Source of the DNA: an uncultured Duganella sp. | GTDB taxonomy: Bacteria; Pseudomonadota; Gammaproteobacteria; Burkholderiales; Burkholderiaceae | Direction: 5' to 3' | DNA: 14,855 nt | Assembly (NCBI GenBank): GCA_946482335.1 | Contig: CAMLRG010000135.1 | Location: 1-14,855, forward strand | Shown: piece after piece, positions 6,362-13,078 of the stretch | How positions within the stretch are numbered: the first letter of the stretch is position 1 | Layout of the letters: every line of letters starts with the position of its first letter | Made by a program: the position numbers and the translations under genes | The notes under the pieces: generated by a model | Told to the model about the DNA's origin: nothing | Database searches by the model: none | The model's input: the letters and a program-made list of their open reading frames with translations, nothing else

Positions 6362-8086
6362 TTAAAATTCTTCCCAATCCCCGACCGGGCTGTTGGCCAC
6401 CTTGCGGGCGGCGGCTTTGCTGTCGCGCAGCGCTGGCTTGGCCGCCACTGCGGGCTTGGCACGGACCGCCTGGATCACGGCCCGGGCCTGTACCGCAGCC
6501 GGGTGCTCGCGACGTTGGCCGTCGACCTGGAACACGCTCACCACACGCGACAGGCTGTTGGCCTGGTCCTGCAAGGCGGCGGAAGCGGAGGCCGCCTCCT
6601 CCACCAAGGCCACATTCTGCTGCGTAATGGTATCCATTTCCGAAATGGCGTGGTGGATCTGCTCCAGGCCCGCGGTCTGTTCCTGGGTGGCGCTGGTGAT
6701 CTCGCCCATGATGTCGGTGACGCGCTGGATGCTGGTCACGATTTCCTTCATCGTGGTGCCGGCCTGGTTCACCAGCTTGGCGCCGCTTTCCACCTTGCCG
6801 ACGGAATCATCGATCAATTGCTTGATCTCCTTGGCGGCAGCGGCTGAGCGCTGGGCCAGGTTGCGCACTTCACTGGCGACCACGGCGAAACCGCGGCCCT
6901 GTTCACCGGCGCGGGCCGCCTCCACCGCCGCATTCAGCGCCAGGATATTGGTCTGGAAGGCAATGCCATCGATGACGGCGATGATGTCGACGATCTTGTT
7001 CGACGATTCGTTGATCGAGCCCATGGTCGCCACCACTTGCTCCACCACTTCACCGCCCTTGGTGGCAACGCTCGAAGCCGACACGGCCAGCTGGTTGGCC
7101 TGGCGTGCGTTGTCGGCGTTCTGACGCACGGTGCTGGTCAACTGCTCCATCGAGGAGGCGGTCTGCTCCAGCGAGGCGGCCTGTTCGCCGGTACGCTGCG
7201 ACAGGTCCATATTGCCGGCCGCGATCTGGCCCGATGCGCTGGAGATGGTGTCGCTGCCGCCGCGCACCTCGGACACGATGGACGCCAGGTTGCCGCGCAT
7301 CTTGTCGAGGGCGCGCAGCAGTTCGCCGAACTCGTTGGCCGGATGCGAGGTGGCTTCGCCTTTCAGGTCGCCTTCGGCAACACGGTTGGCGACTTCCATT
7401 GCTTCGCCCAGGGGCTCGGAGATCGCTTTCATCAGCAGCAGGCCGGCAAACACGCTGAGCGCCAGGCCGCCGACCAGGACCACGGTCACCGTCGTGGTGG
7501 TGCGTTTCAGGCTGGCTGCCACGCTGGCGTCGTCTTCCATGATGCGTTTGTCGGCATGCTCGGACAGCGCCTTCAGCGCGCCGTCGCCGATCCGGTAGGA
7601 AGGGTTGATCTTCTTGATCAGCACCGTCTCCGCATCGTCCCAGCGGTTTTCCTTCACCGCGGCAGTGGCAGCGCGGATGTGCGCCACACCCAGGCCGTCG
7701 CTCTTGGCGAACCATTCCTCCGCCATCTTGCGTTCTTCCGGTTCCTTGATGCTTGCCAGGTAGCCTTCCCAGCGCTTGCCTACACGGGCCGTCACTTCGT
7801 CCACGATATTGAAATGGTTGGTCAGCGGGTGGTCGTGCAACTGGCTCCAGGCCAGGTCGGGATTGTGCTGCAACGCTTGCAGGATCTGGCTGCGGCCCGT
7901 TTCCATGTCCAGCCGGATGGCATTGCGTTCCGCGATGTTCCTCTGGTTGGCAACGGTCACGTCCCTCACCAGGCCGATCGAACGCTCCGCACTGAGGATC
8001 CCCAGGCCGCCAATGATGGCCATCAAGCCAATCAGCAGACCCAGCACACCTACCAGCAGGGTCTTGATCTTGAAATTATTGAACAT
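6362..8086 (-). CDS. Methyl-accepting chemotaxis protein (transmembrane chemoreceptor)
   Basis: A 574-residue Tar/Tsr-type receptor that senses ligands outside the inner membrane and controls CheA through CheW. Domains in order: first membrane helix (8-31), periplasmic helical sensor region (about 32-196, probably a four-helix-bundle type), second membrane helix (197-219), HAMP (about 217-270), and a coiled-coil signalling domain (about 271-520). The conserved hairpin tip is at 376-412 ([20 protein letters not shown] onward). An Ala-rich flexible linker follows, then a C-terminal DWEEF (570-574) that fits the xWxxF tether recognised by CheR/CheB. The ATG start at 8086 has TAAAGGAG six bases upstream, made from the end of carB. 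Only three bases separate the carB stop from this start, so coupling to carB is likely. The ligand cannot be read from the sequence. No other che gene is in the window. Confidence 0.95.
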
Positions 8087-8089
8087 CGC

Positions 8090-11000
8090 TCACTCCTTTA
8101 CCAGACATTTGAAAAATTGATGCAACCGGCCACGCAATTCCGACACTTCGTCGAACTCGATATAGGTGATGTCGGCCAGGTCTTCGAGTTCGCGCAGCAG
8201 CGTGGTCTTGATTGGCGCGCCTTTCCATACCAGGAACAGGATAGGCGTCCGCCGGCCTTTGAATATGTGATAGCTCAACTCGAATGCACTGCTCTCGCTC
8301 ATGCCGACACGGATATTGATCATGACGTCGGCCTGGTCCAGCAATGCCAGGCGGTGGCGCCTGAAATTCTGCGGCGTGAATGGTTTGCCCTGGCTGCGCT
8401 CAAAGGAAGCGCGGAAGGTCTCTGCGCTTTCTGCCTGCAAGCCAGTCAGGTAGTCGAATGCATGCGGCAAGCCGTTCGCGCTATCGATCATCTGCATGAT
8501 CTCGCCGATCATACGCTGTTCGCGCTCGTCCGACTCGGTAAATGGTTGCCGGATGAAGAGCTTGAGTGGCGCGGAGCCGACACTGCGCTGGCGCGGTACC
8601 GAGCGGCGCTCGGGGATCTGCCAGGCTGCCGCCGCCAGGTCGGCCGCGCTGGGCACGGGACGCGGCACCGGCAGCACCTTCCCCTGTTCGCTGGCGCCCA
8701 TCGCATGCAGTTCCTGTAGCGAGCGCACATCCAGCGTGCCGGCATGCTGGCGCGCTTCGGCTGCGGCTTCGGCGGCGGCGATCGTGGTGAAGATCACGGT
8801 ACCGCTTGCAAGCGCCGCGGTACGCAAGGCGCGCGTGGCGGCGATTGCGCTGCGCTTTTCGTCGACGGTCACCACGGCCATGGCGATTTCGCGCAAGGCC
8901 AGCAGGCCAAGCAGGGTTTCGTCTTCAATGGTATTGACGGGCACTTCCCCCGCTTCCAGGATGGCGGCCGTCACTTCGCTGGCGCACAGCGAGTAGCCCG
9001 CCTCGGAAAGCTCGCGGCCCAGCGCTACGGCGCGCGCCTGGTCGGCCTTGCGTACGCGCATATACACGTGCCCTTGCAGTGGGATCCGCAGGCCGGCGCC
9101 CAGTTCGGCCTTGAGGAAGGCTTCGCCGAACGTCGACCCGGTGCCCATCACTTCACCGGTGGATTTCATCTCCGGCCCGAGGATGGTATCCACCCCCGGG
9201 AATTTTGCAAACGGCAAAACAGACTCCTTGACGCTGTAGTAAGGCGGAACCACTTCCGCCGTGACGCCCTGCGCCGCCAGCGTGCGGCCCGCCATGCAGC
9301 GCGCCGCCACCTTGGCCAGCTGCACACCGGTCGCCTTCGAAACGAATGGGACGGTGCGCGATGCGCGCGGATTCACTTCCAGCACGTACACCCGGTCGAC
9401 CGTGCGGCCATCGGCCTTCTGGCGCTGCACCGCAAACTGCACGTTCATCAGGCCGACAACCTTGAGTCCGCGCGCCAGGCGCATGGTCTGGCGCTTGATT
9501 TCGGCCACGGTGCCGTCGGCCAGCGAATATGGCGGCAGGCTGCAAGCCGAGTCGCCGGAATGGATGCCGGCCTGCTCGACGTGCTCCATGACGCCGCCGA
9601 TCACGACCTCGGTGCCGTCGCTGACGCAATCGACGTCCACTTCGATCGCATCATTGAGGAAGCGGTCCAGCAGCACCGGCGAATCGTGCGAGACCTTGAC
9701 CGCCTCGCGCATATAGCGCTCCAGGTCGGCCCGCTCGTGCACGATCTCCATGGCGCGGCCGCCCAGCACATAGGATGGGCGCACCACCAGCGGATAGCCG
9801 ATTTCCTCGGCCATCGCCACTGCCTGCTGCTCGTCGCGCGCGGTGCGGTTGGAGGGCTGACGCAAGTCCAGTTCGAACAGCAGCTTCTGGAAGCGTTCGC
9901 GGTCTTCAGCTGCATCGATCATGTCAGGCGAGGTGCCGATGATGGGCACACCGTTGGCCTCCAGCGCCAGGGCCAGCTTGAGCGGGGTTTGGCCGCCGTA
10001 CTGCACGATCACGCCTTCCGGCTGCTCGATGGCGACGATTTCCAGCACGTCTTCCAGCGTCAGCGATTCGAAATACAGGCGGTCGGAAGTGTCGTAATCG
10101 GTCGATACGGTTTCCGGGTTGCAGTTGACCATGATGGTCTCGTAGCCATCCTCGCGCATGGCGAGCGCGGCATGCACGCAGCAGTAGTCGAATTCGATGC
10201 CCTGCCCGATGCGGTTCGGGCCACCGCCCAGCACCATGATCTTGCGCGCGCCGCTCGGCTGCGCCTCGCACTCTTCGTCATAGGTGGAGTACATGTAGGC
10301 GGTACGCGTGGCGAACTCGCCGGCGCAGGTGTCGACCCGCTTGTACACGGGGCGGATACCCTGGGCATGGCGCTGGGCGCGCACCGCGTCCTCATGCACA
10401 CCGAGCAGGCTGGCAAGGCGGCGGTCGCCGAAACCTTGCTGCTTCAGGCGCCGCATCACGTCCGGCTCCAGCGCCGCCAGCGGCTGCGCTGCCACCCATT
10501 CCTCGATTTCCACCAGATCCTGGATCTGGGCCAGGAACCAGGGGTCGATATGGGAAAGCCGGTTCACCTCGACCAGCGACATGCCTTGCGCGAACGCCTC
10601 GCCCACGTACCAGATTCGCTGCGGTCCTGGCAGGCGCAGTTCCTGCTCGATCACGTCGCGGCCGGTGGCGATGCGCTGCAAGCCGTCCACGCCGATGTCC
10701 AGTCCGCGCAGGGCTTTCTGGAACGATTCCTGGAACGTGCGGCCCATGGCCATCACTTCGCCGACCGACTTCATTTGCGTGGTCAGGCGGTCGTTCGCGC
10801 CGGGGAATTTCTCGAAGGCGAAGCGCGGGATCTTGGTGACCACGTAGTCGATCGCCGGCTCGAACGAGGCTGGCGTGGCGCCGCCGGTAATGTCGTTCTG
10901 CAGCTCGTCCAGGGTGAAGCCGACGGCCAGTTTGGCCGCAACCCTTGCGATCGGGAAGCCGGTGGCCTTGGATGCCAGCGCCGAGGAGCGCGACACGCGC

Positions 11001-11905
11001 GGGTTCATCTCGATCACGATCATGCGGCCATCCTGCGGATTGACGGCGAACTGCACGTTCGACCCGCCGGTATCGACGCCGATCTCGCGCAGTACGTCGA
11101 TCGCCGCGTCGCGCATCACCTGGTATTCCTTGTCGGTCAGGGTTTGCGCCGGCGCCACGGTGATCGAGTCACCGGTGTGCACGCCCATCGGGTCGAGGTT
11201 TTCGATCGAGCAAACGATGATGCAATTGTCCTTGCGGTCGCGCACCACTTCCATCTCGAATTCCTTCCAGCCGATCAGCGACTCTTCGATCAGCAATTCG
11301 GAAGTGGGCGACAATTCCAGGCCGCGCAGGCAGATGGCATTGAATTCTTCGGCATTGCGCGCGATGCCTCCGCCGCTGCCGCCCATGGTGAAGGAAGGAC
11401 GGATGATGACGGGGAAGCCGAGGCGTTCCTGCGCCTGCCAGGCTTCGGCCATGCTGTGGGCGATGCCCGACCGGGCCGACAGCAGGCCGATGCGCTCCAT
11501 GGCCTGCTTGAACTTGGCGCGGTCTTCGGCGCGGTCGATGGCTTCCGGGGTGGCGCCGATCAGTTCCACGTTGAAGCGTTCCAGCACGCCATGGCGGTGC
11601 AGGTCGAGTGCGCAATTGAGCGCAGTCTGGCCGCCCATGGTGGGCAGCACGGCCTGCGGGCGCTCCTTTTCGATGATGCGCGCCACGGTTTCCCAGGTCA
11701 CCGGTTCGATGTAGGTGACGTCGGCCATGCCGGGATCGGTCATGATGGTGGCCGGATTGCTGTTCACCAGCACCACCTGGTAGCCTTCTTCACGCAGCGC
11801 CTTGCAAGCCTGGGCGCCGGAATAATCGAACTCGCAGGCCTGGCCGATCACGATCGGGCCGGCGCCAATAATCAGGATGCGCTGGATATCGGTACGCTTA
11901 GCCAT
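8090..11905 (-). CDS. carB: Carbamoyl-phosphate synthase large subunit, with an extra C-terminal domain
   Basis: CarB makes carbamoyl phosphate from bicarbonate, ammonia (channelled from CarA) and two ATP, for pyrimidine and arginine synthesis. It has 1271 residues; normal CarB is about 1070-1080. The first synthetase half keeps E. coli numbering: Arg129, Arg169, Glu299, Asn301, Arg303. The second half keeps YVLGGRAME (712-720) and LEVNPRASR (842-850). Residues matching the ornithine site are also kept (Glu777, Asp785, Glu894). The MGS-like regulatory domain (about 945-1070) is divergent. It is about four residues short, with Thr992 where E. coli has Lys993 and Val1012 where it has Asn1015. 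The canonical end is near LQELHAMG (1063-1070). Residues 1071-1112 form a Pro/Arg/Ala-rich linker, and 1113-1271 an extra domain (separate entry). The frame is uninterrupted. The ATG overlaps the carA stop by 8 bases. A second, specialised carB copy is possible. Confidence 0.96.
8093..8100 (-). promoter_or_regulatory. Chemoreceptor ribosome-binding site embedded in the carB 3' end
   Basis: The minus strand reads TAAAGGAG here, six bases before the chemoreceptor ATG. AAG GAG are also the last two sense codons of carB (Lys1270-Glu1271), directly before its TGA (8092-8090). Ribosomes finishing carB would therefore uncover or reuse this site. Confidence 0.75.
8093..8569 (-). other. CarB C-terminal extension: nucleoside deoxyribosyltransferase / DNPH1 / TIR-like domain
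   Basis: This encodes CarB residues 1113-1271. What is seen: a first strand and turn LKLFIRQPF (1114-1122) like the FI.xPF opening of these Rossmann-like domains; [11 protein letters not shown] (1188-1198) like the D.aDvvi strand; [13 protein letters not shown] (1205-1217) like the [F/W/Y]-E-[L/I]-[G/S] helix, with Glu1209 where the catalytic glutamate sits in nucleoside 2-deoxyribosyltransferases and in human DNPH1; then a hydrophobic strand PILFLV and a final helix ending LHQFF. The family cleaves or transfers N-glycosidic bonds of nucleosides or nucleotides, and defence-related TIR-like relatives use a similar fold. The assignment rests on motif order by eye, not on a search. A purely binding (sensor) role is equally possible. 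Hand-counted G+C for 8101-8580 is about 57%, against about 65% in nine sampled 60-base rows of the rest of carB. Confidence 0.5.
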
Positions 11906-13055
11906 GGCGTGCGCCCTCCATCATGCTGACGAAGCGGTCGAACAGCGGAGCCAGGTCGTGCGGCCCGGGCGAAGCTTCCGGGTGTCCCTGGAAGCAGAAG
12001 GCCGGCTTGTCGGTGCGGCGGAAACCCTGCAGCGAACCATCGAACAGGGAAATATGGGTGACGGCGCAATTGCCCGGCAGCGAATCCGGATCGACGGCAA
12101 AGCCATGGTTCTGCGAAGTGATCATCACGCGGCCGGTCTCCACGTCCTGCACCGGATGGTTGGCGCCGTGGTGGCCGAACTTCATCTTCACCGTACGCGC
12201 GCCGGAAGCGAGCGCCATGATCTGGTGCCCCAGGCAGATGCCGAAGGTCGGTACGCCGCGCTCGATCAGTTCGCGTGCCGCCTCGATCGCATAGCCGCAA
12301 GGCTGCGGGTCGCCAGGACCGTTGGACAGGAAAATGCCGTCGGGATTCAGTGCCAGGGCCGCCGCGGCGCCAGCCTTGGCCGGCAGCACCGTCACGCGGC
12401 AGCCGCGCTGGGCCAGCATGCGCAGGATATTGGCCTTGACGCCGAAATCGTAGGCCACCACATGGCGGGCCGGCTGCAGCTGGCGGCCATGGCCATGGCC
12501 CGGCATCCATTCCGTTTCGGTCCATTCATAGGGAAACGCGATGCTCACTTCCTGCGCCAGGTCCATGCCGGCCAAGCCGGGAAATTGGCGGGCCATGCGC
12601 AGCGCTTCCTCAGCGCCGCCACCGGCCACGATCGCGCCCGACTGGGCGCCTTTTTCGCGCAGGATGCGCGTCAGCTTGCGGGTGTCGATGCCGGCGATCG
12701 CCACCACGCCCTGCTCGCGCAGCCAGGACGACAGGTCCTGTTCGCTGCGGAAGTTCGATGCCAGCAACGGCACATCCTTCACCACCAGTCCGGCCGCATG
12801 GGTCAGCGCGGCTTCCGCGTCCTCGCGGTTGATACCGGTATTGCCGATATGGGGATAGGTCAGGGTCACAATCTGGCGGCTGTAACTCGGATCGCTCAGG
12901 ATTTCCTGGTAGCCGCTCATGGCGGTATTGAAAACGACTTCGCCAGCCGTTGCGCCGTCGGCGCCGATCGAGATGCCTTCAAACAGCGTACCGTCGCCCA
13001 ATGCGAGCACGGCGCGCCCGGCAATCCCGCTGGGATGCTTGAGTGGGTGTTTCAT
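11898..13055 (-). CDS. carA: Carbamoyl-phosphate synthase small subunit (glutaminase)
   Basis: A 385-residue class I glutamine amidotransferase subunit that hydrolyses glutamine and passes ammonia to CarB. The N-terminal small-subunit domain is present ([20 protein letters not shown], and the segment with [12 protein letters not shown] and [16 protein letters not shown]). The amidotransferase domain follows, with FLSNGPGDP, the nucleophile Cys274 in FGICLGHQ, and the His358/Glu360 pair in [13 protein letters not shown]. Length is near E. coli CarA (382). I chose ATG 13055, which has AGGAG (plus-strand 13064-13068) eight bases upstream. The frame stays open to a GTG at 13073, but that would put the ribosome site inside the gene. 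The last codons overlap carB by 8 bases (11898-11905), which would keep the two subunits in balance. All expected catalytic residues are present, so this half of the enzyme looks conventional. Confidence 0.97.
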
Positions 13056-13078
13056 CAGGGGGTCTCCTGCCACGGGTT

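Follow-up and report, generated by a model that had tools for sequence, protein, structure and literature searches.

The window analysed here, a stretch of 14,855 nucleotides from an uncultured Duganella sp. (GenBank contig CAMLRG010000135.1), carries on its minus strand a carB gene whose product, the large subunit of carbamoyl-phosphate synthase (CPS), ends in an additional domain. The gene spans 8090-11905 (ATG at 11903-11905, stop at 8090-8092) and encodes 1271 amino acids, running about 200 codons past the normal end of CarB without a stop, as an earlier note made from the letters alone had described. The CarB core, residues 1-1070 (8696..11905), is defined by the NCBIfam profile NF003671, which scores 1677.9 bits and spans residues 1-1066 only, by E. 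coli CarB from the PDB, which aligns to residues 1-1068, and by residue checks. Residues 1071-1271 (positions 8093-8695) comprise a Pro/Arg/Ala-rich linker (1071-1112; 8570..8695), variable in both length and sequence in alignments of relatives and of low confidence in the predicted model of MGS domain, linker and tail, followed by the tail domain itself (1113-1271; 8093..8569). By their coordinates, carA, encoding the glutamine amidotransferase subunit (11898..13073, minus strand; Pfam GATase and CPSase_sm_chain), overlaps the start of carB by 8 bases, and a gene for a chemoreceptor (MCP; 6362..8086, minus strand) begins 3 bases past the carB stop; Pfam recognizes in it a TarH-type sensor, HAMP and MCPsignal.

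The long frame is found again in the relatives L001-L014, as open frames of 1276-1354 amino acids, and because relatives carry the same tailed frame the tail is no missed stop. Against six relatives the ratio of nonsynonymous to synonymous substitution rates (dN/dS) of the tail is 0.035-0.070, and in two of those the CarB core gives 0.062-0.067; purifying selection on the tail is comparable to that on the core. A missed stop or frameshift near 8695, one of the refuting outcomes that the earlier note had listed, is thus ruled out by the shared frame and the low dN/dS. In three Massilia-type genomes (L015, L020 and L027) the carB frames are broken, by sequencing error or as pseudogenes.

Fold and conserved residues of the tail domain

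No match was obtained in Pfam for the tail alone, nor in NCBIfam or PADLOC for the tail domain, and nothing significant was returned from PHROGs or from PDB sequences (best E 0.62; profile search best E 0.35). The window domain does not reach the curated cut-off of the nucleoside deoxyribosyltransferase family PF05014 (Nuc_deoxyrib_tr). Among 55 domain members, four match PF05014 weakly (best E 0.026), and weak matches to DUF4942 are more numerous (six members, best E 0.01); APEH_N, in one of the 55 (E 0.0084), is among the best of the sub-significant matches.

The AlphaFold2 model of the tail domain (predicted local distance difference test, pLDDT, 87.5; predicted template-modelling score, pTM, 0.84) has the overall fold of the MilB/DNPH1 nucleotide 5'-phosphate N-glycosidases. 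Foldseek places MilB at ranks 1-4, and VIA-align gives its highest Z, 14.6 over 133 residues at 17% identity, to DNPH1. Together these models and matches bear out the proposal of a genuine extra domain of the N-glycosidase/deoxyribosyltransferase/DNPH1 fold. Its landmarks are an R1119-Q1120-P1121 loop, R1182/R1185, R1199, S1203-E1204-S1205, E1209, Y1212 and K1233-T1234-T1235. Conservation was counted over 259 aligned proteins from three homolog searches (117 + 120 + 22), the 120 being those listed among 336 matches, many of them contig-edge pieces of CarB. A Glu occupies the E1209 position in all 259, and hhalign places E1209 on the catalytic Glu of the deoxyribosyltransferases of PF05014 (E 2.6e-4, probability 42%). 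A Ser stands six residues ahead of the Glu, at the phosphate-binding position of MilB/DNPH1, in 258 of the 259; the same spacing is given for the known enzymes in published accounts. E1169 is nearly invariant among the homologs. We find, then, a tail that is real and conserved, with a predicted MilB/DNPH1 fold in which the nucleophile position is always Glu.

A recurrent partner of carbamoyl-phosphate synthase

A question raised by the earlier note was, does such a tail recur among long CarB proteins? A search with residues 1072-1271, in which candidates were proteins of 0.55-1.75 times the query length, recovered 117 proteins (E 1.5e-115 to 6e-19), all with Pfam domains of the CPS large chain; the tail is a recurring CPS partner rather than a one-off. 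A pattern-based scan of genome contigs located 61 loci with the domain. Fusions to CarB belong mainly to Oxalobacteraceae; others come from Bradyrhizobium (L054) and from two bins, one bearing the label Thiotrichales (L038), the other Rhodospirillales (L035). Fusions to CarA occur in Chitinophaga (L051) and in a gammaproteobacterial bin (L053); some of the hosts outside Burkholderiales are metagenome bins whose taxonomy may be misassigned. As a separate gene, the domain overlaps the end of carB in a Marinamargulisbacteria genome (L058), and in a Frankiales bin (L060) it stands two genes before carA. With the Chitinophaga fusion as query, 22 proteins of similar length were found: 11 with CarB domains, nine with CarA/GATase domains and two without listed domains. 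Among the nine, the domain is N-terminal in four and C-terminal in five, and one (P0255) has GATase only and bears the source name anthranilate synthase component II. The domain is thus joined to CPS in three architectures, at the CarB C-terminus, the CarA N-terminus and the CarA C-terminus, or lies adjacent to CPS genes. This coupling is well supported and is our firm result, with the stand-alone copies as its reservation. On a tree of CarB cores five changes of the tailed label are required, and starred branches force at least three of them; the forced changes may be gains or losses, and the tree is a quick one that carries a long-branch warning.

The stand-alone copies have settings of their own. 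In Caballeronia (L036, L037, L039 and L040) the tail follows a short stretch resembling the CarB C-terminus, YSLQ[ED]LH, at a locus without carB; these copies are apparently former fusions whose CPS part has since been lost. In a cyanobacterial bin (L049, 5974-11218) the domain gene adjoins a gene of 1577 amino acids, judged by eye to encode a relaxase, which suggests carriage on a plasmid, and the bin holds one further copy. Two copies stand in tandem in L059 (5992-8032). Among the fused loci, that of Bradyrhizobium centrolobii (L054, 2-1021) has an open reading frame, by eye a glutamine synthetase, upstream of carA and the tailed carB. In three Massilia species (L022/L028, L023/L026 and L025/L021) a contig carries two tandem units of carA, tailed carB and MCP, as if the three duplicate as a single block.

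In the titles and abstract openings of the open-access literature searched, no description of a CarB with such a tail, or of a duplicated CPS, was found, in agreement with the earlier note. A paper on the Massilia group and Leptospira (PMC13386949) contains none of the words uracil, pyrimidine, carbamoyl, nucleobase and purine. CPS is a known enzyme and the superfamily a known one; neither the domain family nor its repeated association with CPS turned up in the family libraries consulted or in the open-access literature searched.

An accessory synthase with an altered UMP site and its chemoreceptor

Nineteen genomes were searched for CarB copies. All seven Oxalobacteraceae among them have at least one tailed CarB together with a plain one, and plain copies were found in these seven and in Bradyrhizobium. 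The plain CarBs of Oxalobacteraceae are open frames of 1072-1084 amino acids, 74-76% identical to the core of the window CarB. The tailed enzyme is therefore, as seen in relatives of the window, a second, paralogous CPS beside a plain one that is presumably the housekeeping copy; the notion that the tail rides on the housekeeping enzyme is, on this evidence, wrong or incomplete. By its full-length family profile and its ATP-grasp residues the tailed protein belongs to the CPS large subunits, and because it equals E. coli at 11 of the 12 ATP-grasp positions checked (754 is Arg for His), the tailed CPS is predicted to be catalytically active.

The UMP/IMP allosteric site is not intact in the window: two lysines of the MGS domain are lost (K954 to Q and K993 to D, E. 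coli numbering) and T977 is retained. Besides Thr977 and Lys993, the positions of the UMP site include K954, T974, N1015 and T1017. Plain CarBs keep both lysines in 17 of 17. Among the 108 tailed rows nearest the window, K993 is lost in all and K954 in 106; these rows are not independent, as a locus and a database protein may be the same sequence, their lineage is that of the nearest of four reference rows, and four truncated CarB rows (L022_924, L023_938, L025_937 and L076_941) are left out. Both lysines are lost also in L051, in L053 and in the P0116 type (6 of 6).

In 34 of 40 fused loci a chemoreceptor match directly follows the tail or directly precedes carA; the 40 exclude L053 and L058, where the carB end is merely close by, and the match in L038 is weak (28%). 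Of the other six, five have no contig sequence on the possible MCP side and one, Bradyrhizobium L054, has no MCP. Among the 21 loci outside this set an MCP adjoins in five (L042-L046, which their titles assign to Burkholderiales or Betaproteobacteria). A relative of the MCP sensor domain at E <=1e-15 is present in seven of eight genomes, the best one always at the locus of the tail domain. In a sample of 195 genomes from the window's family the tail domain occurs in 14 and the sensor domain in 30, all 14 falling within the 30 and 16 having the sensor domain without the tail domain (Fisher p 1.8e-13, uncorrected for shared ancestry). In Burkholderiales, the tail domain is found together with the family that includes this MCP sensor domain. 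Of five genomes with sensor but without tail domain that were read, one (L097, 5695-13762) has the MCP in a window-like neighbourhood (DUF4337, decarboxylase, folA, thyA) without carAB and tail, which is a loss or a pre-insertion state.

Proposed function and comparison with known systems

CPS starts pyrimidine and arginine synthesis and is a textbook allosteric enzyme under the control of uridine monophosphate (UMP), inosine monophosphate (IMP) and ornithine. What, then, might the tail contribute? Judging from fold and conservation, its most likely task is to handle, next to CPS and as enzyme or sensor, a pyrimidine-pathway ribosyl phosphate. We give about an even chance to an accessory CPS whose large-subunit tail processes or senses a nucleotide and so takes over, or undoes, end-product control. 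The tail would bind a phosphorylated ribosyl compound of the pathway, with UMP, cytidine monophosphate (CMP), orotidine monophosphate (OMP) and phosphoribosyl pyrophosphate (PRPP) as candidates, through Ser1203/Ser1205 and the basic residues R1119, R1182, R1185, R1199 and K1233, and the glycosidic bond would be cut through E1209. The tail would take over end-product control from a degenerate MGS domain, either by removing the feedback nucleotide locally or by reporting on it.

Several observations weigh against this proposal. The position corresponding to the general acid D80 of DNPH1, placed from its distance to the Glu, 24 residues further on, and from the hhalign register with the deoxyribosyltransferases rather than from superposed coordinates, is an Arg (R1185) in all 259 proteins. 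Textbook hydrolysis by the tail therefore cannot be assumed and may be absent; E1169 could serve as general acid instead of the Asp. Of the earlier note's call of Glu1209 as the catalytic residue, the alignment on a catalytic Glu stands, and hydrolysis does not follow from it. The retained Glu favours catalysis, and the Arg together with the conserved basic residues favours unusual chemistry or sensing. The model of MGS domain, linker and tail reaches a pTM of 0.47 from 23 alignment rows, so no docking is predicted, and since tail and MGS are not confidently packed against each other in it, the tail probably works as a tethered domain. Nearly all tailed rows retain Thr977, so that the UMP site has not vanished altogether, and both lysines are retained in 22 of 26 Bradyrhizobium-type tailed rows and in P0117, L058 and L060; as the Bradyrhizobium type mostly keeps both, their loss is no condition for having the tail. 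Copies of the domain lie without CPS nearby in L036, L049, L052, L057 and L059, and a Weissella genome (G013) has a stand-alone copy and a CarB match that is partial, at 31%. The domain is also rare: it occurs in 14 of 195 genomes of the window's family, in one of 292 sampled from the phylum to which the cyanobacterial bin belongs and in one of 296 from the phylum of Chitinophaga, the single positive in the latter two being the genome on which each sample was centred.

These points bear also on the alternatives. Possible, though on the doubtful side, is an allosteric sensor that, on binding a nucleotide or PRPP, would regulate CPS in place of the MGS site without cleaving anything; the invariant Arg, the many conserved basic residues, the loss of UMP-site lysines in several lineages and the fusion to either subunit would all suit a regulator, whereas the Glu retained in 259 of 259 and the stand-alone copies, in Caballeronia with a mere short CarB-like remnant, speak against it. 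Transfer chemistry is known for this fold from the deoxyribosyltransferases, and an enzyme passing a Glu-bound ribosyl phosphate to a CPS product as acceptor (ammonia, carbamate or carbamoyl phosphate) would fit the partnership with either subunit and the dedicated chemoreceptor next door, which might sense something linked to the ribosyl product. We hold this to be quite unlikely, as the product is without direct evidence and stand-alone copies lack CPS nearby.

An anti-phage effector riding on CPS, as the earlier note had also entertained, is very improbable. PADLOC has no match for the domain or for nine of ten proteins flanking stand-alone copies, the tenth, by eye a relaxase-helicase, matching five PADLOC models (best typeIV_RecD); plasmid and phage collections (tblastn with the window domain) and viral contigs (pattern scan) contained no relative at the sensitivity used. 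A passive C-terminal extension without a CPS-related function would suit the variable linker, yet with three fusion architectures, invariant pocket residues and the low dN/dS of the tail it is already disfavoured and hardly credible.

Returning to a tail that processes or senses a nucleotide, the three modes of joining suggest that carbamoyl-phosphate synthesis has a regulator or a side-activity of which we found no description. Presence on either subunit, together with lysine loss in several lineages, would add a layer of control to the step with which pyrimidine and arginine synthesis begin, one for which the searched literature yielded no earlier account, and the tie to the chemoreceptor, if functional, would connect a biosynthetic enzyme with chemotaxis. 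Speculatively, and rather against the odds, the domain might be a third CPS component, thinly but broadly spread in bacteria, that processes ribosyl phosphate, has repeatedly been joined to CarA or CarB and takes the place of UMP feedback; in Burkholderiales it would also link the state of the pathway to a dedicated chemoreceptor, possibly via its own product.

Among known systems, the CMP N-glycosidases MilB and BcmB share with the tail the fold, the position of the Glu nucleophile, the Ser six before it and, in the inferred register, a Phe instead of Tyr in the first strand, a position that PMC10603095 ties to ribose. The tail differs from them in the Arg at the inferred general-acid position, the fusion to CPS and the RQP loop after the first strand, and has no significant sequence match to them. 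DNPH1 (Rcl) shares the Glu and Ser positions and gives the highest VIA-align Z; at 17% identity, the tail has an inferred Arg for its D80 and an inferred Phe for its Y24. The nucleoside 2-deoxyribosyltransferases (PF05014) align Glu on Glu by hhalign, yet the window domain has no match to the family. E. coli CarB aligns with residues 1-1068 and agrees at all but one of the ATP-grasp positions checked, whereas the tailed CarB has lost the UMP-site lysines 954 and 993, has an extra tail of 200 amino acids and, in relatives, is a second copy beside a plain CarB.
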